DNA of 33,318 nt, from assembly GCA_020346745.1 (NCBI GenBank), contig CP070787.1:1222589-1255906 (forward strand), written 5' to 3'. Below the pieces are notes generated by a model. It saw only the letters and a list, made by a program, of their open reading frames with translations, was not told where the DNA came from and made no database searches. The translations under genes and the position numbers were made by a program. This DNA is from Fidelibacterota bacterium (lineage in GTDB: Bacteria > Fidelibacterota > Marinisomatia > SCGC-AAA003-L08 > TS1B11). Below are positions 3,260 to 30,487 of this stretch, piece after piece; the stretch's first letter is position 1, and every line of letters starts with the position of its first letter.

Positions 3260-4990
3260 ATGGGTAATAACCAACGAACTCTAACCGGTGCCGAGATCCT
3301 CTGGGAGTGTCTGGTGCGTGAAGGGGTGGAGGTTGTCTTCGGCTACCCCGGCGGGGCCACCCTGCCCATATACGATGCGATGAGCGGGCACAGCGATAAA
3401 GTACGCCACGTTCTGGTACGACATGAGCAGGGCGCTGCTCATATGGCTGATGGCTATGCCCGGGTCAGTGGGAAGGTAGGGGTTGCCATGGCCACCTCGG
3501 GCCCCGGTGCCACCAACCTGGTTACCGGTATCGCCACGGCCATGATGGACTCCTCCCCCATCGTATGCCTCACGGGGCAGGTGGCTACCACCGCGCTGGG
3601 CGGCGACGCTTTTCAGGAGACCGATATCACCGGCGCCACTCTGCCCCTGACCAAGCATAGCTACCTGGTCATGCAGGTGGAGGAGCTGGCTTATTCCATT
3701 CGGGAGGCTTTTTATATTGCCCGCACCGGGCGGCCCGGTCCGGTGCTGATCGATATCCCCAAGGATGTACAAACGGCCTCGACGGAATTTGTTTATCCCG
3801 ATGACCCCATTGATCTGCCCGGATACAACCCGCCGGAAAGAGCCACCGATCAGCAGGTCAACAACGCCCTGGAACTGATCAACGGAGCTGAAAAACCGGT
3901 GATCCTTGCCGGACAGGGAGTCCTCATGTCCGGGGCCATGAGCGAACTGAACCAGCTAGTCGAAAAAGCTACCATCCCGGTGGCAACCACCCTTCTGGGC
4001 CTCGGCAGCATCCCGGCCAGCCATCCCTGTAACCTGGGGATGATGGGGATGCACGGGACCGCCATGGCTAACCACGCCATCCAGGAGGCCGATCTGCTCA
4101 TCGCCTGCGGCATGCGCTTCGACGACCGGGTGACGGGGAAACTCCAGACCTATTCTCCCAACTCCCGGAAAATTCACATCGACATCGACGCCTCCGAGCT
4201 GAACAAGAATGTGCGTGTCGACCTGGCGATCAACGCTGACCTGGCCACCGTGCTGCGCCAGATTCTTCCGGGAGTGAAGAAGCGCAAACGCTCCGAGTGG
4301 ACGAGCCAGATCCAGGAATGGCGGGAGGACGCCGACCAGCGGGATGTGCTGCGAACCGACTCGCCGGTATTGATGGGCGCGCAGGTGATCCGCACGATCC
4401 GGGAAGGCACCTCCGATGACGCAGTCATTGTAACCGATGTGGGTCAGCACCAGATGCTGGAAGCCCAGTACTATACCCATGAGCAGCCGCTCACGCTGAT
4501 CACGTCCGGGGGATTGGGTACCATGGGCTTCAGTCTCCCGGCGGCCATTGGGGCCAGTTTCGCAGTACAAGAGCGGGAGATCTGGGTCATCGTTGGAGAC
4601 GGCGGTTTCCAGATGAACATGCAGGAGCTGGGCACAGCCATGCAGGAAGGGGCGAACGTGAATATAGCCATCATTAACAACGGCTACCTGGGCATGGTCC
4701 GACAGTGGCAGCAGCTATTCTACGAGGCGCGCTACACGGAGACACCCATCTCCAGCCCCGATTACGTCAAGATAGCCGAGGCCTACGGGATGCCTGGCTA
4801 TCGGGTTGAGCGGCAGGAGGATATCCGGCCCAGCATGGAGTGCGCCCGGAATCACCCGGGGCCAGCGCTAATCGACTTTATCGTCGAGAAGCACGATATG
4901 GTGTATCCCATGGTGCCTGCCGGGGCCGGCCTACACGAGATGATCCGCCGGCCGCATCCCAGCCAAGTAGATGCGGTCAAGGTAGAATAA
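3260..4990 (+). CDS. ilvB: Acetolactate (acetohydroxyacid) synthase large subunit
   Basis: This ThDP-dependent catalytic subunit condenses pyruvate with pyruvate to give acetolactate, or with 2-oxobutyrate to give acetohydroxybutyrate, committing carbon to valine/leucine or isoleucine. The 576-residue protein has the N-terminal ThDP pyrimidine domain with the activating Glu56 in VRHEQGAAHMADGYARV, a central FAD-binding-type domain, and the C-terminal diphosphate motif starting GDGGFQMN at 446 and closing with NN at 473-474. The length matches FAD-containing AHAS large subunits, and the adjacent small subunit separates it from catabolic acetolactate synthase. It lies 26 bp after ilvD with GAGGCG before the ATG. 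Confidence 0.96.
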   Translation: MGNNQRTLTGAEILWECLVREGVEVVFGYPGGATLPIYDAMSGHSDKVRHVLVRHEQGAAHMADGYARVSGKVGVAMATSGPGATNLVTGIATAMMDSSPIVCLTGQVATTALGGDAFQETDITGATLPLTKHSYLVMQVEELAYSIREAFYIARTGRPGPVLIDIPKDVQTASTEFVYPDDPIDLPGYNPPERATDQQVNNALELINGAEKPVILAGQGVLMSGAMSELNQLVEKATIPVATTLLGLGSIPASHPCNLGMMGMHGTAMANHAIQEADLLIACGMRFDDRVTGKLQTYSPNSRKIHIDIDASELNKNVRVDLAINADLATVLRQILPGVKKRKRSEWTSQIQEWREDADQRDVLRTDSPVLMGAQVIRTIREGTSDDAVIVTDVGQHQMLEAQYYTHEQPLTLITSGGLGTMGFSLPAAIGASFAVQEREIWVIVGDGGFQMNMQELGTAMQEGANVNIAIINNGYLGMVRQWQQLFYEARYTETPISSPDYVKIAEAYGMPGYRVERQEDIRPSMECARNHPGPALIDFIVEKHDMVYPMVPAGAGLHEMIRRPHPSQVDAVKVE

Positions 4991-21831: not shown

Positions 21832-22887
21832 ATGTCCCCAGCACTTATTGAACGCTACCGGGAATTCCTGCCGGTGACCGCTGATACTCCTATTGTCACC
21901 TTGTCGGAGGGGAATACCCCGCTGTTACCGGCGCCGGTATTGTCCGCGCAGGTGGGTGCGGAGGTCCATCTCAAGTTCGAGGGCTGCAATCCCACGGGAT
22001 CGTTCAAGGATCGGGGCATGACCCTGGCGGTATCGAAGGCCAAGGAGTCAGGCGTGGAGGCGGTGGTGTGCGCATCCACGGGCAATACGGCGGCATCGGC
22101 CGCAGCTTACGCCGCCCGGGCTAGGCTGCGGTGCATCGTGCTGCTGCCGGAAGGGAAGGTGGCCCTGGGTAAACTGGCCCACGTCTCCATGTGCGGCGCC
22201 GAGGTGGTGGCCGTGAAGGGCAATTTCGACGAAGCTCTGGAGATCGTGCGCTACCTGGCCAATACTTACCCCGTGGAGATGGTGAATTCCCTTAATCCCT
22301 ACCGGATAGACGGCCAGATGACGGGTGCGTTCGAGATCGTGGACGTTCTGGGTGATGGGCCCGTGTACCAGGCCATGCCAGTGGGCAACGCCGGGAACAT
22401 CACGGCCTACTGGAAGGGGTATAAACGGTACCAGGAAGCAGGCCGGTTGCAGCGGTTGCCGCGCATGCTGGGCTTCCAGGCGGCGGGAGCCGCGCCTATC
22501 GTACTAGGCAAACCGGTATCGAATCCTGAAACCGTAGCCAGCGCCATCCGCATCGGCAATCCCGCCAGCTGGAAAGACGCCGAGGCCGCCCGGGATGAGT
22601 CCGGGGGGCTCATTGATGCCGTGACCGACGAGGAGATACTGGCGGCTTACCAGCTACTGGGATCGAAGGAGGGGGTATTCTGTGAGCCGGCCTCGGCGGC
22701 GGGGGTGGCGGGTATTCTCAAGCTTGCCAAGGAAGGATTCTTCAAGCCAAGCGATCAGGTGGTGTGCATCATCACCGGGCACGGGTTGAAGGATCCGGAC
22801 ACGGCTATTGCGTCCGCGCCGACGCCGACCAGCCTGCCAGCGGAGAAGGGAGCGGTGGCAAGTGCATTGGGCCTGGAGAGCCAATGA
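21832..22887 (+). CDS. thrC: Threonine synthase (conventional paralog)
   Basis: ThrC converts O-phosphohomoserine to threonine and phosphate with PLP. The 351-residue protein has the compact form without a zinc ribbon, with LSEGNTPLLPAP, the Schiff-base Lys59 in NPTGSFKDRGMT, and the phosphate-binding CASTGNTAASAAAYAARA, all canonical for threonine synthase. It also has NPYRIDGQMTGAFEI and a serine-rich C-terminal phosphate pocket region. No good ribosome binding site lies before ATG 21832. It is followed by a separate promoter and leader, so it is likely transcribed apart from the second thrC-like gene. This copy is the better candidate for the real threonine-forming enzyme. Confidence 0.93.
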   Translation: MSPALIERYREFLPVTADTPIVTLSEGNTPLLPAPVLSAQVGAEVHLKFEGCNPTGSFKDRGMTLAVSKAKESGVEAVVCASTGNTAASAAAYAARARLRCIVLLPEGKVALGKLAHVSMCGAEVVAVKGNFDEALEIVRYLANTYPVEMVNSLNPYRIDGQMTGAFEIVDVLGDGPVYQAMPVGNAGNITAYWKGYKRYQEAGRLQRLPRMLGFQAAGAAPIVLGKPVSNPETVASAIRIGNPASWKDAEAARDESGGLIDAVTDEEILAAYQLLGSKEGVFCEPASAAGVAGILKLAKEGFFKPSDQVVCIITGHGLKDPDTAIASAPTPTSLPAEKGAVASALGLESQ

Positions 22888-22907: not shown

Positions 22908-22935
22908 TTGCCTACCCCCCAAGTGGTCGTATAAA
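22908..22935 (+). promoter_or_regulatory. Candidate promoter of the methionine-leader operon
   Basis: TTGCCT at 22908-22913 (4 of 6 matches) and TATAAA at 22930-22935 (5 of 6 matches) are separated by 16 bp, placing transcription start near 22942. This is about 30 nt upstream of the leader peptide start and about 220 nt upstream of the first structural gene. Confidence 0.55.
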
Positions 22936-22972
22936 ATAGCCGCTACAGTTGGAAGAAGTGGAATTTAGACTG

Positions 22973-23077
22973 ATGATTACAGCAACCGCCCATAGCCAGC
23001 ACTGTCAGGGCATGATGATGATGGCCATGATGATGATGCATCCCAGGCATCGTGCGGGCGTGGAGCGGACGTTGTAA
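22973..23077 (+). CDS. Methionine-rich leader peptide
   Basis: A 34-residue frame runs from ATG 22973 to TAA 23075-23077 and begins MITATAHSQHCQG. The block MMMMAMMMM is encoded by eight ATG codons at 23012-23023 and 23027-23038. The only ribosome binding site is a weak GTGGA about 10 nt upstream. The frame lies between a promoter and a strong intrinsic terminator. Its 3' codons (23054-23068) form the 5' arm of an antiterminator. This is the classical design of an amino-acid attenuator, here reading charged tRNA-Met. It was not on any long-frame list because of its size. A purely repetitive GAT tract is the alternative explanation for the ATG run. Confidence 0.75.
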   Translation: MITATAHSQHCQGMMMMAMMMMHPRHRAGVERTL

Positions 23078-23119
23078 CCAGACCGAAAAACCAGAATTTT
23101 AAAACCCCCTCTACCCCGC
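23054..23119 (+). promoter_or_regulatory. Antiterminator of the methionine attenuator
   Basis: The RNA at 23054-23068 (GCGGGCGTGGAGCGG) can pair with 23107-23119, which contains most of the 5' arm of the terminator. The helix has G54-G58 with C115-C119 (GCGGG with CCCGC), then GTGGAG with CTCTAC (one G-U pair), then GG with CC, with two single-base bulges. The arm begins 15 nt after the last Met codon. A ribosome stalled on the Met run would leave it free, while a ribosome at the leader stop codon would cover most of it. Confidence 0.65.
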
Positions 23120-23141
23120 CGGTAGAGGGGGTTTTTCTTTT
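23101..23141 (+). terminator. Attenuator terminator before thrC2
   Basis: CCCCCTCTACC (23105-23115) pairs perfectly with GGTAGAGGGGG (23121-23131) around a 5-nt loop. Four flanking A-T pairs extend the stem, and TTTTTCTTTT follows. It is a textbook intrinsic terminator, placed 20 nt before the start codon of the next gene and 24 nt after the leader stop. Confidence 0.9.
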
Positions 23142-23160: not shown

Positions 23161-24408
23161 ATGAGCCAGGCATTAACATGCAACACGTGCGGTGAGCGGA
23201 CGGAGCTCAAGCCGGATACGGTGTGCCCGTCGTGCTTTAACCCGCTGGAGATCACCTACGACTACGACACGATCGGCGGCCAACTGGACGCGGAGCAGAT
23301 CGCTGGTCGCTCCGCCAGCATGTGGCGCTACGCGGAGCTGCTGCCGGAAGTAAATGGGGGCGCTCCGGACACGCCAGTAGGCTGGACGCCGCTAATCCGG
23401 GCCAGGCGGCTGGGGAAGGCCCTGAACATGCCCAACCTGTACATCAAGAACGACGCGGTGAACTTCCCCAGTCTGTCCTTCAAGGACCGGGTGGTGTCGG
23501 TGGCGCTGGCCAAGGCGGTGGATTTCGGCTTCCGCACAGTGGGCTGCGCCTCCACCGGCAACCTGGCCAACGCCCTGGGAGCCCAGGCCACCATGCTGGG
23601 ACTGCGGAGCGTGATCCTCATCCCCCACGACCTGGAGCAGCAGAAGATCTCGGCCTCGGCCTGTTACAACACCCAGGTAGTGAAGGTCAACGGCACGTAC
23701 GATGACGTGAACCGCCTGTGCACCGAGCTGACCTACCGGGAGAATATGGGCATCGTGAACGTGAACCTGCGGCCGTTCTACTCGGAGGGATCGAAGACGG
23801 TGGGCTTCGAGATCGCGGAGCAGCTAGGCTGGAGGCTGCCGGACCAAGTGGTGGTACCCATGGCCGGGGGATCGCTGATCTCCAAGGTGGGCAAAGCCTT
23901 CGGGGAGCTGGTGCAGGTAGGCCTGGTGCGTGAGAAGCAGGCAGCTATCTTCGGTGCCCAGGCTACGGGCTGCGCGCCCATCGCCGCGCTGGTGAAAAGC
24001 CGCGGGGAGGAACTGACGCCCGTCAAGCCGGATACGGTGGTGAAGTCGCTGTCCATCGGTGCGCCGGCGGACGGCCACCGGGCAGCCCGGACCATCCGAA
24101 GTTCCGGCGGCTGGGCGGAAGATGTAAGCGACGAAGAGGCCGTGGCGGCCATCTCGCTGCTGGCCGAGACGGAAGGCATTTTCACCGAAGCCGCCGGTGG
24201 TGTGACCGTGGCCGTCACACAAAAACTGCTGAAGCTGGGCAAGCTCGATCAGGAAGCGGTTACGGTGATATGCATCACCGGCAACGGCCTGAAGACCGCA
24301 GACCTGGTGGCTCACCGGACGGAGCGGCTGCCCGTAATCGAACCCAAGTATTCATCGTATACAACCCTTGTGAACCAGAAGGAGACAGCGTATGCCGGCA
24401 CGGTTTGA
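23161..24408 (+). CDS. Zinc-ribbon threonine synthase paralog, candidate O-phosphohomoserine sulfhydrylase
   Basis: This is a fold-type II PLP enzyme of 415 residues in the threonine synthase superfamily. An N-terminal zinc ribbon (Cys7, Cys10, Cys22, Cys25) precedes the catalytic domain, with the Schiff-base Lys108 in PSLSFKDRVVS and the phosphate loop ASTGNLANALGAQA. These differ from the neighbouring conventional ThrC (NPTGSFKDRGM, ASTGNTAASAAAY). The gene follows the methionine attenuator at ATG 23161 behind AAGGAG and overlaps the CysO-like carrier gene by 17 bp. By family it should bind O-phosphohomoserine or a similar phosphoester. The context suggests replacing the phosphate by sulfur from a carrier thiocarboxylate to give homocysteine. 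A second true threonine synthase is the conservative alternative. Confidence 0.85.
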   Translation: MSQALTCNTCGERTELKPDTVCPSCFNPLEITYDYDTIGGQLDAEQIAGRSASMWRYAELLPEVNGGAPDTPVGWTPLIRARRLGKALNMPNLYIKNDAVNFPSLSFKDRVVSVALAKAVDFGFRTVGCASTGNLANALGAQATMLGLRSVILIPHDLEQQKISASACYNTQVVKVNGTYDDVNRLCTELTYRENMGIVNVNLRPFYSEGSKTVGFEIAEQLGWRLPDQVVVPMAGGSLISKVGKAFGELVQVGLVREKQAAIFGAQATGCAPIAALVKSRGEELTPVKPDTVVKSLSIGAPADGHRAARTIRSSGGWAEDVSDEEAVAAISLLAETEGIFTEAAGGVTVAVTQKLLKLGKLDQEAVTVICITGNGLKTADLVAHRTERLPVIEPKYSSYTTLVNQKETAYAGTV

Positions 24409-24667
24409 ATTTCTCGGCCCTTTGAAGCAGCTCGTTGAAGGCCAGGATGTAGTAGAGGTGGAGGCCACCAGCGTTGGAGGTGCCCTGGAGGAACTGCAGC
24501 AGCGGTATAGCGAGCTGTCAAAGCGGCTGCTGGCGGAGGACGGCACCCTGCACCGCCACATCAACATTTTCGTGAACGAGGAGGATATCCGTTTCAGGGA
24601 GAACCTCCAGACGGCATTAACAGCCGGTGACCAGATCACTGTCATTTCGGCTATTGCGGGAGGATGA
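24392..24667 (+). CDS. CysO/MoaD-like sulfur carrier protein ending in Gly-Gly
   Basis: This 91-residue ubiquitin-fold protein belongs to the ThiS/MoaD superfamily. Its second half, HINIFVNEEDIRFRENL to the terminal VISAIAGG, closely resembles the mycobacterial cysteine-biosynthesis carrier CysO (remembered ending LPAVAGG), more than typical MoaD or ThiS. The chain ends exactly at Gly90-Gly91, so it can be adenylated and thiocarboxylated without proteolytic trimming. ATG 24392 has GGAG 7 nt upstream and lies inside the end of the thrC2 gene, and the activating enzyme follows 1 bp after its stop. The tight coupling implies that the three proteins work together as carrier, PLP acceptor enzyme and E1. 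No molybdopterin gene is near. Confidence 0.88.
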   Translation: MPARFEFLGPLKQLVEGQDVVEVEATSVGGALEELQQRYSELSKRLLAEDGTLHRHINIFVNEEDIRFRENLQTALTAGDQITVISAIAGG

Positions 24668-24668
24668 G

Positions 24669-25577
24669 ATGACGACGTCCGCGCGAACGGCCGATAGACC
24701 GCTGGACTGGTACAACCGCTATGCCCGGCACATCGCCCTGGAGGAGGTGGGCGAATCGGGGCAGCTGGCCCTTAACGCCGCCTCGGTGCTGGTGATCGGC
24801 ACCGGCGGCCTGGGCTCACCGGTAGCGTATTACCTGACAGCCGCTGGCGTCGGTACCCTGGGACTGGTGGACTTCGACACCGTCTCGCTGAACAACCTTC
24901 AGCGCCAGATCCTCCACGGTACATCCGATGAAGGCCGGCCCAAGGTCCAATCGGCGTGGGAAACGCTGCGGGAGATCAATCCCGAGGTGACGGTACGTCT
25001 TTACCAGGAAAAGCTCACGACAGCGAACGCCCTCGACCTGGTGAAGGAGTATGACCTAGTGGTGGATGCCAGCGATAATTTCAATACCCGGTTCCTGATC
25101 AACGATGTGTGCGTCCAGGCGAAGAAGCCGCTGGTGTTCGGCGCGGTGCTCCAGTTCGCCGGACAGGTGACGGTTTTTACCCAAGAAGAGGACTGCGGCT
25201 GCTACCGCTGCCTGTTCCCGGAAGCCCCACCCCCCGAGCTGGTTCCCACCTGCGCGGAGGCGGGCATCTTCGGGGTAACGCCGGGGGTCATAGGCAGTTT
25301 ACAGGCATCACAGGTACTGATACTGATCCTCAGCCGCAGCGGCCACCAGGCGGGAAAAATCCTCAAGAACCGCCTGCTGGTCTATGACGGGAAGGAAGCC
25401 GCTTTCCGCACCATTCAGCTGGCCCGGAACCCCGAGTGTCCAGTCTGCTCGCAGCCCGATTTCGACTTTCGCCAGGTGGAGTATCTCGATACATGCGTCA
25501 TTCCAAGCTCGTCGGAGACTGCGAAGAGAACCAAGGTCCAACAGGTTGATCTCGACATTGCCATGGTTGAATCTTAA
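24669..25577 (+). CDS. MoeB/ThiF-type carrier-activating enzyme (E1-like)
   Basis: The enzyme adenylates the C-terminal glycine of the carrier so that sulfur can be added. The 302-residue protein has GTGGLGSP (44-51), VDFDTVSLNNLQRQ (67-80), VDASDNFNTR (132-141), the zinc cysteines Cys178, Cys181, Cys257 and Cys260, and the conserved Cys195 in PTCAEAGIFGVTPG. It has no C-terminal rhodanese domain, so it is like MoeB rather than MoeZ/MOCS3. Sulfur must then come from another protein; TusA and a DsrE-like protein are encoded at the end of the operon. ATG 24669 with GGGAGGA just upstream is preferred to an open-frame start inside the carrier gene. Confidence 0.9.
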   Translation: MTTSARTADRPLDWYNRYARHIALEEVGESGQLALNAASVLVIGTGGLGSPVAYYLTAAGVGTLGLVDFDTVSLNNLQRQILHGTSDEGRPKVQSAWETLREINPEVTVRLYQEKLTTANALDLVKEYDLVVDASDNFNTRFLINDVCVQAKKPLVFGAVLQFAGQVTVFTQEEDCGCYRCLFPEAPPPELVPTCAEAGIFGVTPGVIGSLQASQVLILILSRSGHQAGKILKNRLLVYDGKEAAFRTIQLARNPECPVCSQPDFDFRQVEYLDTCVIPSSSETAKRTKVQQVDLDIAMVES

Positions 25578-25616: not shown

Positions 25617-26528
25617 ATGAGCATTCAGTACCGTACGTCCGTGCCGGCCACCACGGCCAACCTGGGTCCCGGGTACGATATCCTCGGCCTGGCGCTGGAC
25701 CTGCGTCTCACGGCCCTGGCGGTTCCTGCCGATGAGTGGATTGTCGAGCCCCAGGGCGAAGGGAGCCATCTGCTGGACACATGCGGCTACAATCTCATCG
25801 CCCAGGCTTTCGAGGAGGCCTGCAAACGGCATGGGTGGGACGTCTACCCTCTGAGGATCGAAAGCGACAATCAGATCCCCATAGCCCGGGGACTGGGGAG
25901 CAGTGCGGCGGCGATTGTCACCGGCATGGCACTGGCCCAGTTGGTGAAACTGGGCCGCCTTGACCGCGACGCCCTGTTCCGGGATGCCGCCGATATGGAG
26001 GGCCATCCCGACAACGTGGCAGCCGCGGTATACGGCGGCTTGCAGGAGGTCAGCAAACAGGGCCCAGGCTGCCAGGTTCGTACCAAGGATCTATCGGATA
26101 GCGTGAAGGTTATGCTGGTGATCCCCGATCAGATGAAATCCACGAAAGAGCTGCGGGAGATCGTGCCGGAGAGGCTATCCGCTGAGGACCAGGCCGCCAA
26201 TGAAGGGGCGTTAAAGCATGTCCTGCAAGGCCTGGCCGAGGGCGATGCGGTTCACCTGCGGTTTTCCGAGTCGGATCGCCGCCACCAGCCCTATCGCCTG
26301 GCCGTGCAGCCAACCTCGGCAGCCATTTTCAGACTGCTGCAGGAGCACCCGGCAATAGCCGGTGTCTTTCTCAGCGGGGCAGGTACTACCGTGGGTGGCT
26401 GGATCGCCGGTGAGGCCGATCCCCGCACAGAGATCAGGGAGGCACTCCGGGAGCAGTCCATCACCGCGGCCGTTATGTTAACCGAGCCTGACAGGGAAGG
26501 CACTCAAGGCGAGGTTATCCGTGGCTAA
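25617..26528 (+). CDS. thrB: Homoserine kinase
   Basis: ThrB phosphorylates homoserine to O-phosphohomoserine, the branch metabolite used by threonine synthase and, in plants, by cystathionine gamma-synthase. The 303-residue GHMP kinase has the N-terminal VPATTANLGPGYDILGLAL, the ATP loop PIARGLGSSAAAIVTG (88-103), and GHPDNVAAAVYGG in the middle. The C-terminal GVFLSGAGTTVGGW is also typical. It lies 39 bp after the E1-like gene and overlaps lysC by 8 bp. Its presence behind a methionine leader rather than beside the conventional thrC is notable. Confidence 0.95.
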   Translation: MSIQYRTSVPATTANLGPGYDILGLALDLRLTALAVPADEWIVEPQGEGSHLLDTCGYNLIAQAFEEACKRHGWDVYPLRIESDNQIPIARGLGSSAAAIVTGMALAQLVKLGRLDRDALFRDAADMEGHPDNVAAAVYGGLQEVSKQGPGCQVRTKDLSDSVKVMLVIPDQMKSTKELREIVPERLSAEDQAANEGALKHVLQGLAEGDAVHLRFSESDRRHQPYRLAVQPTSAAIFRLLQEHPAIAGVFLSGAGTTVGGWIAGEADPRTEIREALREQSITAAVMLTEPDREGTQGEVIRG

Positions 26529-27897
26529 GCCATACATTTTCAAATTCGGCGGTAGCTCTCTGAAGACGGCGACTTGCATAGCGGGTGTAGTTGATATCAT
26601 CGCGGGCTTCGAAAAGCCGCTGGCGGTGGTGACCTCCGCTCTGGCCGGGATCACGGACCTGCTGGTAGAGGCTGGCGATGAGCGAGGACGGGTCGCCGAG
26701 ATCAGGGATACTATTCAGCAACGCCACCTGGAGACCGGGCGGGAACTGGGATTGAGGTCCGAGACTCTGAATGACTTTGAGGCCTACCTGGACACCACGC
26801 TTGACGACCTGGCAGCGGCGGCCACCGGAAACGGCAGGACGCGGGACCTGGTGCTCTCCATCGGTGAGCGGCTCTCGACCAACCTGTTGGCAGCCGCCCT
26901 GGAGGCGAGGGGTATCGGGAGCAGATATGTAGACAGCCGTCCGGTCATACGGACAGACAGCCACTGGAGCGAAGCGCGCATCGATCTGTCCGCTACTCAC
27001 CGTCAGATAACCGAGACCTTGGCACCGATCCTAGATGAGGGAGATATCCCGGTCGTAACCGGATTCCTGGGCAGCAACGAAGCGGGTGAAACGACCACCA
27101 TCGGCCGCAACGGTTCCGATCTGACGGCGACACTGCTGGGGCGCTGCCTCGATGCGAATGAGGTCTGGATCTGGACGGACGTGGATGGGATCTATACCGC
27201 TGACCCGCGCTACCATGAGGGGGCTAAGGTCCTGCCCGAGATCTCGTTCCGGGAGGCGGCCGAGGCGGCCTACTTCGGCGCCACTGTCATTCACCCACAT
27301 ACCCTATGGCCAGTATTGGAAACGGAAGTAGCTGTGAGAATCAAGAACACGTTCAAGCCACAGAATGGGGGCACACTGATCTGCGCCGAGCCGAAGCAGC
27401 GGGGCAAGATACTCATCACCACCTCGGTTGAAGGTGTTGCGGTCATTACCGTTGGGGGCTACGGGATGGTTGGTGTTCCGGGCGTGGCCGCGACCATTTT
27501 TACCGCCGTGAAAGAGACGGGCACCAACGTGCTGATGATCAGCCAGAGCTCAGCAGAACACAACATTACCTTTGTGATCCGGGACCAGGAGGTGCACGAA
27601 ACAGTGGCCTCTCTGGAGCGCGCGCTGTCAGAATGGATCGAGAAGGACCATCTCATCGACCGCATCCGGGTGGTGACCGACGTGGCGGTCATCACAGTGG
27701 TAGGCGAGAACATGCGGGGACGCTACGGCATTGCGGGCAAGATCTTCTCCGCCCTGGGCCGCAGCCGGATCAACGTGATCGCCATTGCCCAGGGATCGTC
27801 GGAATACTCCATTTCCATGGTTCTAAAAGAGGCGGACATGCGCCGGGCAATAGACGCCATACACGGGGAACTGGATGAGGAGAACCATGGCAACTAG
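26521..27897 (+). CDS. lysC: Aspartokinase
   Basis: LysC phosphorylates aspartate, the first step towards lysine, threonine and methionine. The 458-residue protein is a monofunctional enzyme with FKFGGSSL (7-14), [12 protein letters not shown], the [15 protein letters not shown] loop and [13 protein letters not shown]. Two C-terminal ACT units follow from about 310 ([15 protein letters not shown] and [15 protein letters not shown]), so feedback control by an end product is expected. The start is GTG 26521 with GAGG 6 nt upstream, overlapping thrB. No homoserine dehydrogenase domain is fused. Confidence 0.95.
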
Positions 27898-28936
27898 GCT
27901 GCGAGCGGGGATCCTGGGAGCCACCGGTGCTGTCGGCCAGCGGTTCGTGCAGCTGCTGGAGAACCACCCCTGGTTCGAAGTGGCTGCCCTTTACGCATCC
28001 GAGCGCTCGGCGGGCAAGCCCTACGGGGAGGCAGCGGACTGGCGGGTACCGGTGCCGCGTCCCACCTACGCGGAGGAGATGATCATTCGCGCCATGGAGC
28101 CAAACGACGACGTGGACCTGGTCTTTTCGGCCCTGCCCCGCGATTCAGCCGAAACGGTAGAGGCGGATTTCGCCCAGGCAGGAATCCCGGTTATCTCCAA
28201 TGCCAGCGCCTACCGGGCAGCTGCCGATGTCCCTCTCGTCATTCCAGAGGTTAATCCTGACCACACGGAGCTCATCAATGTGCAACGCAGGAACCGGGGC
28301 TGGGGCGGTTACATTGTCACTAATCCCAATTGCTCGGTTATCGGGCTCGTCCTGCCGCTCAAGCCGCTGCATGATGTTTTCGGGCTGCGCCTGATCCAGG
28401 TGGTAACCATGCAGGCCCGGTCCGGGGCGGGGTATCCCGGTCCCCCACCGGAGGTAATCGACGATAACGTGCTGCCGTTCATCCGCGGTGAGGAGGATAA
28501 AGTGGAAGCCGAGCCGCGCAAGCTGCTGGGCACACTGGAAGGAGACAGCATCCGCGAAGCCGACATCATCATCTCGGCGCAGTGCAACCGGGTGAATGTC
28601 CTGGACGGTCACCTGGAAGCGGTGAGCCTGGGATTCGAGAACCGGCCTGATCCCGAGGCGGTCATCCGGGCACTGCGTGATTTCCGGGGGTTACCCCAAG
28701 AGGCACGACTGCCCTCCGCACCCGCGCGGCCCATCCTGATCACAGACCAGGAGGATCGTCCCCAACCCAAGCTGGACCGGGACGCTGGCGACGGGATGGC
28801 GGTCACGGTGGGCCGCATCCGGCCGGACAGCCTGCTGGACATTAAATTTACCGTACTCTCGCACAACACGATCCGCGGTGCCGCCGGTGCCGCGATCCTG
28901 AACGCGGAACTGCTTAAAAATCAGGGGTACCTATGA
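27887..28936 (+). CDS. asd: Aspartate-semialdehyde dehydrogenase
   Basis: Asd reduces aspartyl phosphate to aspartate-4-semialdehyde with NADPH. The 349-residue protein resembles the archaeal/fungal-type family, with GATGAVGQRF (11-20), SNASAYR, the nucleophile Cys149 in TNPNCSVIG, and QARSGAGYPG, a segment typical of that branch. ATG 27887 is chosen over an in-frame ATG at 27875, which lies before the GAGGAG ribosome binding site. It overlaps lysC by 11 bp and the following dehydrogenase gene by 4 bp, so the aspartate-family genes are translated as one coupled block. Confidence 0.94.
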   Translation: MATRLRAGILGATGAVGQRFVQLLENHPWFEVAALYASERSAGKPYGEAADWRVPVPRPTYAEEMIIRAMEPNDDVDLVFSALPRDSAETVEADFAQAGIPVISNASAYRAAADVPLVIPEVNPDHTELINVQRRNRGWGGYIVTNPNCSVIGLVLPLKPLHDVFGLRLIQVVTMQARSGAGYPGPPPEVIDDNVLPFIRGEEDKVEAEPRKLLGTLEGDSIREADIIISAQCNRVNVLDGHLEAVSLGFENRPDPEAVIRALRDFRGLPQEARLPSAPARPILITDQEDRPQPKLDRDAGDGMAVTVGRIRPDSLLDIKFTVLSHNTIRGAAGAAILNAELLKNQGYL

Positions 28937-29713: not shown

Positions 29714-29950
29714 ATGAGCGAACCGTTCTTTGACCAGGAGCTGGACTGCCAGGGATTGCTCTGCCCCCTGCCGGTCCTCAAGACTAAACAGGTCCTGGAT
29801 AGTATGGGCACCGGAAAGGTTTTGCGTCTGCTGGCCACCGATCCGGGATCAGTCAGCGACATGGAGGCCTGGACCCGCCAGACGGGCAATGAGCTCCTGG
29901 ACCACCGTGAAGGGGACGGGGTATATACCTACTACGTGCGGAAAGTGTAG
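29714..29950 (+). CDS. TusA-family sulfurtransferase
   Basis: This 78-residue protein has the TusA/SirA/YeeD fold signature DCQGLLCPLPVLKTKQ (11-26). Cys17 in the CPLP motif is the expected persulfide-carrying residue, with a second Cys at 12. TusA proteins pass persulfide sulfur between donors such as cysteine desulfurase or rhodanese and acceptors such as DsrE-type proteins. The gene follows the SDR by 25 bp and precedes a DsrE-like gene by 24 bp. In an operon with a CysO-like carrier that has no rhodanese partner, it is a natural candidate for supplying the sulfur. Confidence 0.9.
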   Translation: MSEPFFDQELDCQGLLCPLPVLKTKQVLDSMGTGKVLRLLATDPGSVSDMEAWTRQTGNELLDHREGDGVYTYYVRKV

Positions 29951-29974
29951 CGGAGCTGAATGGGAGCAGGTAGT

Positions 29975-30487
29975 ATGGCAGATGATAGACGACGATTGGC
30001 AATCATCGCCTCGAAAGGAACCCTGGACTGGGCCTATCCACCCTTCATCCTGGCCTCCACCGCCGCGGCCATGGGCTGGGAGGTGGGTGTCTTCTTCACC
30101 TTCTACGGCCTGACCCTGCTGAAAAAGAAGATCACGGCCAAAGTGGCGCCCCACGCCAATCCCGCCATGCCCATGAAGATGCCCTTCGGACCGCAGGGAT
30201 TTCAGAATATCGAATGGCCGATGCCCAATATCCTGACGGCCAACCTGCCCGGTTTCGATCACGCGGCCACGGCCTTGATGCGCAGGACGTTCAAGAAGAA
30301 GGGGGTGGCCACCATCGAGGAACTGCGGCAGCTGTCCCTGGAGGCCGGCGCCCGGCTGATCAGCTGCCAGATGACTGCTGAGGTCTTCGGCTTCCGGCAC
30401 GAAGATTTCATCGATGGAGTGGAGAAGGGCGGGGCCGCCACCTTCCTGGAGTTCGCCGCCGAGGCGGATGTGAGCCTGTTTATCTGA
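29975..30487 (+). CDS. DsrE/DsrF-like (DsrE2-type) sulfur-transfer protein
   Basis: This 170-residue protein of the DsrE/F/DrsH-like superfamily opens LAIIASKGTLDWAYPP and has a hydrophobic stretch near 21-48, where DsrE2 proteins are often membrane associated. The conserved Cys131 in LISCQMTAEVFGF is the likely persulfide carrier. In sulfur-oxidising microbes DsrE2 is commonly encoded with TusA and rhodanese; here it is paired with TusA at the end of an amino-acid operon. ATG 29975 has GGAG 8 nt upstream; an in-frame ATG at 29960 is possible. A hairpin directly follows the stop codon. Confidence 0.83.
   Translation: MADDRRRLAIIASKGTLDWAYPPFILASTAAAMGWEVGVFFTFYGLTLLKKKITAKVAPHANPAMPMKMPFGPQGFQNIEWPMPNILTANLPGFDHAATALMRRTFKKKGVATIEELRQLSLEAGARLISCQMTAEVFGFRHEDFIDGVEKGGAATFLEFAAEADVSLFI

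Follow-up and report, generated by a model that had tools for sequence, protein, structure and literature searches.

The window, by which we mean the whole analysed stretch of 33,318 nucleotides, comes from a 3.11 Mb genome of the Marinimicrobia (Candidatus Neomarinimicrobiota) and carries on its plus strand an operon of amino acid and sulfur-carrier genes preceded by a short Met-rich reading frame. The first structural gene (23161..24408) encodes a metM-like protein, a threonine-synthase-like PLP enzyme (PALP) identified by Pfam and NCBIfam profiles. It is followed on the same strand by a ThiS/SAMP1/MoaD-like sulfur carrier with a terminal AIAGG, that is, a Gly-Gly ending (24392..24667), a MoeB/ThiF-like activating enzyme (24627..25577, likely start ATG 24669), the homoserine kinase gene thrB, whose product supplies O-phosphohomoserine (25617..26528, TIGR00191 above cut-off), the aspartate kinase gene lysC (26521..27897, profile match) and the aspartate-semialdehyde dehydrogenase gene asd (27875..28936, TIGR00978 above cut-off). 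An SDR gene lies between asd and two plus-strand downstream neighbours: a TusA-like small protein (29714..29950), read from the sequence and resembling the TusA-like gene of locus L132, and the sulfur carrier protein DsrE2 (29960..30487, NF047629 above cut-off). Directly upstream lies a separate, genuine threonine synthase gene, thrC (21832-22887), whose product is 34% identical to the metM-like protein over the aligned part.

The plus-strand leader ORF (22973..23077) consists of 34 codons and a TAA stop, encodes the peptide MITATAHSQHCQGMMMMAMMMMHPRHRAGVERTL* and has homologous leaders in six relatives. Codons 14-22 read MMMMAMMMM: four ATG codons, one GCC and four further ATG codons at 23012-23038, so that a preliminary description of a 34-codon frame with eight ATG in nine codons is borne out. 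The peptide has eight internal Met in 34 codons, and its sole Cys is located upstream of the Met run. Eight in-frame ATGs were attained in 7 of 5000 dinucleotide shuffles of the leader ORF. Short ORFs with at least five internal Met number three in the real window versus 0.34 per shuffled window, and among the three a T-run follows downstream only for the leader ORF. About 35 nt 5' of the leader ORF, a consensus scan finds a plus-strand promoter-like site (22908..22937; TTGCCT, 18 nt, TAAAAT, in TATAAAATA) that scores 9/12, a weak indication when taken alone.

Elsewhere in the window, positions 1258-1413 and 1418-1505 hold a candidate branched-chain leader 5' of ilvD, ending in NVAVIIGIIVLPINLALSG*. 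It is followed by the inverted repeats GGGCAGTTAATCCC and GGGATTAACTGCC, no T-tract terminator was seen there, and the arrangement possibly reflects translational control.

Terminator and competing helices of the leader

An intrinsic terminator hairpin (23101..23135, plus strand; segments 3 and 4) is located between the leader ORF and the first structural gene. Positions 23101-23115 pair with 23121-23135 in a 15-bp stem of 11 mostly G-C and four A-U pairs around the 5-nt loop CCGCC (-26.9 kcal/mol), and the T-tract TTTTTCTTTT is read from the sequence at 23132..23141; the GC-rich 11-bp stem with A-T extension and T-tract reported earlier is recovered here in full. Segment 2 (23054..23068), within the leader ORF, is the 5' arm of a predicted antiterminator; its 3' arm, segment 3 (23107..23119), overlaps both the 5' arm and the loop of the terminator. 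The predicted helix comprises 13 pairs, one of them G-U, with two single-base bulges and an energy of -22.7 kcal/mol, in agreement with the 13-bp alternative helix proposed before, and of 500 shuffled versions of the upstream segment just one pairs equally well with the terminator arm. If formed, this helix would break the terminator. The antiterminator arm begins 15 nt past the last Met codon, exactly as first described; the placement of the stop codon just beyond the arm also holds, but six nucleotides lie between them, the earlier count of seven being an offset of one. A candidate protector arm (segment 1, 22985..23002) is predicted to pair with 23054-23068 in the untranslated leader at -21.7 kcal/mol, a value matched by 32 of 500 shuffles.

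We propose, at a probability of roughly 88%, that these elements form a ribosome-mediated Met-codon transcription attenuator that reads charged elongator Met-tRNA ahead of a likely homocysteine operon. From the layout we infer the course of stalling, termination and methionine response. RNA polymerase would transcribe the leader with a ribosome behind it. Under scarce Met-tRNA the ribosome would stall within the Met run at 23012-23038, its leading edge halting just before segment 2 (23054-23068); the free segment 2 would then pair with segment 3 (23107-23119), no terminator would form, and the operon would be transcribed. Under ample Met-tRNA the ribosome would reach the stop codon at 23075 and cover segment 2, leaving segment 3 to pair with segment 4 in the terminator at 23101-23135, and transcription would end near 23141. 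In an untranslated leader, segment 1 would pair with segment 2 and enforce termination.

Conservation of the leader in relatives

Seven leaders are readable: those of the window (G000), of the genomes G003, G006, G007, G008 and G010, and of contig JACZYG010000001 (L038). The leader of G001 (CP070656.1) was left out as uninformative, being covered by 100 N (L033, about 4842-4941); G001 is otherwise a single-contig genome, and its run of 100 N falls exactly on the leader. From the start codon, the seven peptides are MITATAHSQHCQGMMMMAMMMMHPRHRAGVERTL, MLTIDHNTRDMYMPMMSMMMDSSSLAGVEWEL, MYHNTQISTCMYMAMMGIMMPRPTLAGNEW, MSGHEIFGIGTGMRRMPMIAKIMCARRWGQERME, MSGYEIFGIETGMRRMPMMAMIMCARRWGQERMG, MAYNNQNNTRCVDMGIMMCLMCMYSSDTVGVEWLL and VYHNCPMCMAMDTPMMGPEGAL, the last with a GTG start or, in a longer form, an ATG. 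Though the peptides otherwise align poorly, each of the seven leaders contains 5-8 internal Met codons. Summed over the seven, 43 ATGs are in frame versus 1 out of frame, a bias with p near 1e-19 for random frames and independent sites, which is overstated given that the sequences are related. The stop codon is separated from the T-tract by 54-61 nt in all seven, behind a hairpin of like kind, and the terminator is also kept in the partly gapped G001. An arm at the ORF end able to pair with the 5' arm of the terminator is present in 7/7 leaders, with predicted energies of -17.6 to -28.2 kcal/mol. We searched for relatives that keep the terminator while losing the Met run or its frame, the outcome that the preliminary description had named as contrary to its reading, and found none; every readable leader keeps all three. 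The terminator, the frame and the Met codons kept in 7/7 leaders support that reading of a Met-codon transcription attenuator, made before the operon was identified and the Cys and Asn leaders described below were found.

A ribosome stalled at the last Met codon should extend at its front to about 17 nt from the codon's first base. The arm starts 17 nt from this base in four of the seven leaders; in G006, G010 and G007 it partly overlaps the last Met codon or sits closer to it, and the antiterminator is predicted to be more stable than the terminator. These tighter arms and stronger antiterminators indicate that the exact geometry is not uniform. Pairing is best at the proposed register for both helices: 89.6% of cells versus at most 67.7% when slid for the terminator, and 81.1% versus at most 64.4% for the antiterminator. 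Aligning the leaders, a check suggested at the outset, confirms the conserved Met runs, but the compensatory stem changes expected alongside them are scarce and not significant: with little variation among the seven leaders, each helix displays one two-sided pair change, not above shuffles. Covariation as proof of the helices was dropped because these counts are not significant, and pairing capacity and register were used instead. A universal 1:2 protector helix was likewise dropped, being predicted in just four of the seven leaders.

The position of the hairpin between thrC and the next operon would also suit a plain thrC terminator with a chance Met-rich ORF or ATG microsatellite ahead of it, and in the window the run is indeed an ATG repeat and the stem is nearly palindromic, matching the minus strand too. 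This explanation is contradicted already by conservation, and we give it hardly any credence. The gene upstream of the leader varies among relatives (thrC in the window and L039, others in L034, L035 and L038), while leader and terminator stay; the Met codons of the relatives are not tandem repeats (M-C-M-A-M, M-Y-M-A-M-M-G-I-M-M); and the frame bias stands at 43 to 1. The leader element travels with the metM-like gene, not with the upstream gene, and no full-length match to a leader model at E<=0.01 was found in four same-family relatives lacking the metM-like gene. Leader, Met run, terminator, competing helix, conservation and linkage to the metM-like gene can all be read from the genomes themselves, and the cross-genome conservation is stronger evidence than the shuffle statistics.

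The same pattern of conservation bears on two other explanations. An uncharacterised SAM- or Met-binding riboswitch might use the terminator, the ORF being incidental, and SAM riboswitches do control like genes elsewhere (L043; PMC12172450). No Rfam family, SAM riboswitch families included, matches anywhere in the window, and L038 has no Rfam match either; moreover, the conserved nucleotides of the leaders lie only in the arms, and conservation of the frame and of the Met codons is seen at the codon level, which makes such a riboswitch very improbable. We regard as equally improbable a Met-rich peptide that acts as a functional small protein or as a copper-like metal-sensing uORF, in which arrest by peptide and metal, not tRNA supply, would modulate the terminator. 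Copper can be bound by Met, His and Cys, and the window peptide has HCQGMMMMAMMMMHPRH, but the seven peptides do not share conserved His or Cys positions, the linked downstream genes are amino acid and sulfur-carrier genes with no copper genes among them, and leaders of the same layout with Cys or Asn runs precede sulfur and Asn genes.

The metM-like operon and its proposed role in homocysteine synthesis

Orthologs of the metM-like gene are found in six other same-family genomes and one further Marinimicrobia contig, and the closest named relatives of its product are all from Marinimicrobia, at 72-82% identity. Among 171 genomes of the class, close orthologs occur in the family alone, apart from one truncated match. 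No good MetX or MetA match was found in 11 family genomes; the curated MetX cut-off was missed in control genomes too, and the absence of MetX is therefore read from the lack of strong matches. With a separate thrC present and neither MetX nor MetA found, the operon fits the O-phosphohomoserine route to homocysteine (MetM). PF01053 enzymes (Cys/Met-family PLP enzymes) are present and may provide a second route to homocysteine.

We propose that the metM-like product is an O-phosphohomoserine-dependent homocysteine synthase, judging by gene content and homology, and we infer its reaction as follows: the MoeB-like enzyme would load sulfur onto the ThiS-like carrier, which the ThrC-like enzyme would then use to convert O-phosphohomoserine, made by ThrB, into homocysteine. 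The sulfur carrier reportedly has a role in the MetM route of Streptomyces, and in the window a sulfur-carrier gene is linked to the metM-like gene. Feeding of a PLP enzyme by a protein thiocarboxylate from a ThiF/MoeB-type enzyme is familiar from CysM-CysO-Mec of Mycobacterium tuberculosis and HcyS/HcyD/HcyF-MetY of Wolinella. Unlike in these systems, the PLP enzyme of the window is ThrC-like and the operon has no JAB hydrolase; none was found in G000, G001 or G003. MetM is a homocysteine synthase in Streptomyces (Hasebe et al. 2024, doi 10.1128/aem.01247-24, as reported in PMC12172450), and the S. albulus route likewise employs a threonine-synthase-like enzyme, to which the window protein is likened by description.

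Clusters of metM, thiS and moeB recur in Nitrospinota contigs. Upstream of the metM-like ortholog of FCPU426 we find a SAM-I riboswitch (RF00162, 87.3 bits, L043:43-160), and S. albulus metM also has a SAM riboswitch upstream, according to PMC12172450. Two independent methionine sensors on like genes make a methionine role for the metM-like gene likely; most likely, to judge from these associations, the controlled operon makes homocysteine and hence methionine.

The Nitrospinota-type loci L040, L041 and L044 have a common promoter region TTGACAAAAATACTAGGGTACTTTAA and then a GGATGGCGCTCCTTTCC-like sequence 5' of the metM-like gene. Their upstream regions have no Rfam match, and the shared sequence is possibly another regulatory element.

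Met, Cys and Asn leaders and their relation to known systems

The 171 class genomes were searched with a covariance model built from the seven leaders; a Met-run pattern search of G000, G001 and G003 gave other ATG clusters, of which those recovered by the RNA model were kept. G003 has a second Met/Cys leader, MRATAHTSPDKYIEMMCMMMLCPGSAGVEWEL, with a terminator (L131:1348-1446; G003:C1, about 1645847-1645945). Over its distal half it is almost the same as the metM leader of G003, and it is followed by a cysK-like PALP gene, a hexapeptide transferase gene, probably serine acetyltransferase, and a cysteine-desulfurase-like gene. At weaker model scores, Cys-run leaders with terminators and up to seven consecutive Cys appear in other Marinimicrobia families (L132, L133, L134, L135, L140, L141, L120). 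The downstream gene of L120 aside, they lie 5' of tusA-dsrE2 (AYCCCCCCCM), sulfite reductase (CCSCCCC) and cysM-JAB-ThiS/ThiF genes (FCCCC). Also at weaker scores, Asn-run leaders with terminators (L136, L137, L138 and L119, with NNNNNN, NNTNN, NNNNN and NNNNNNN) lie 5' of the asparagine synthetase gene asnB. In those Cys-run and Asn-run leaders for which the distance was measured, the terminator is similarly placed. These leaders provide independent support for ribosome-mediated attenuation in Marinimicrobia.

Cys codons within or beside the Met run of most leaders (L038 CVDMGIMMCLMCMY, L039 NCPMCMAM, L035 TCMYMAMM), the second G003 leader (EMMCMMMLC) ahead of cysK, and the pure Cys leaders of other Marinimicrobia raise the question of whether the attenuator senses sulfur amino acids generally, Met and Cys together. 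Such sensing would be a variant of the Met-codon attenuator rather than a true alternative to it, and we consider it doubtful: each metM leader has more Met than Cys (5-8 versus 0-3), the G003 metM leader is devoid of Cys, and the only Cys of the window peptide precedes the run. The Cys codons of several leaders suggest that Cys may contribute.

The Met-codon attenuator resembles the classical trp, his, leu, thr and ilv attenuators in its short leader ORF containing cognate codons in tandem, in the pairing of an ORF-internal arm with the 5' side of the terminator, with the stop codon just beyond the arm, and in the biosynthetic operon downstream. It differs from them in its cognate amino acid, Met, in its phylum, Marinimicrobia, and in a 1:2 protector helix predicted in just 4/7 leaders. 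The mechanism is classical, and the Met specificity is nearly unreported. Methionine genes are usually controlled by SAM riboswitches, T-boxes or MetJ. The SAM-I riboswitches 5' of metM in S. albulus (PMC12172450) and FCPU426 (L043, with a T-rich hairpin after the aptamer) are alike in gene type and response to methionine status, but there SAM is sensed by the aptamer without translation of a leader.

The rarity of Met-codon attenuators asserted in the preliminary description is supported within the open-access literature. For methionine operons, a systematic survey of Actinobacteria turned up no RNA element (Seliverstov et al. 2005, PMC1262725), and a single Met leader, metL, has been proposed: that of Streptomyces lividans, 5' of metNIQ, annotated from RNA-seq only and with no clear terminator (PMC8079986). 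Compared by description, metL is likewise a proposed Met-codon leader peptide 5' of a methionine gene; it differs in having two internal Met and three Cys, in being leaderless, in its lack of a typical terminator and in preceding transporter genes. Leader peptides were known in Proteobacteria and Actinobacteria only until Firmicutes were added (Naville and Gautheret 2010, PMC2965389). In the open-access literature we found nothing closer on Met leaders, Asn leaders or attenuation in Marinimicrobia.

Methionine has so far been a near-blank among the amino acids sensed by leader-peptide attenuation. Methionine starvation also affects initiation via fMet-tRNA, and this effect is one conceivable reason for the rarity of such leaders. 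A shortage of fMet-tRNA hits initiation, so a Met-codon leader would be a natural test of the competition between initiation and elongation. The leader also serves as a functional label, linking what is annotated as another threonine synthase gene, together with a carrier and an activator, to methionine supply, and this label agrees with the SAM riboswitch on the distant FCPU426 ortholog. With the Cys and Asn leaders, the range of classical attenuation widens to include Marinimicrobia, a phylum without a report of it in the open-access literature. It appears likely that leader attenuation is in this phylum a general, switchable amino acid sensor with one layout, reading Met ahead of metM and cysK, Cys ahead of sulfite reductase, tusA-dsrE2 and cysM-JAB-ThiS/ThiF genes, and Asn ahead of asnB, and that its Met version marks the ThrC-like/ThiS/MoeB operon as a methionine pathway.
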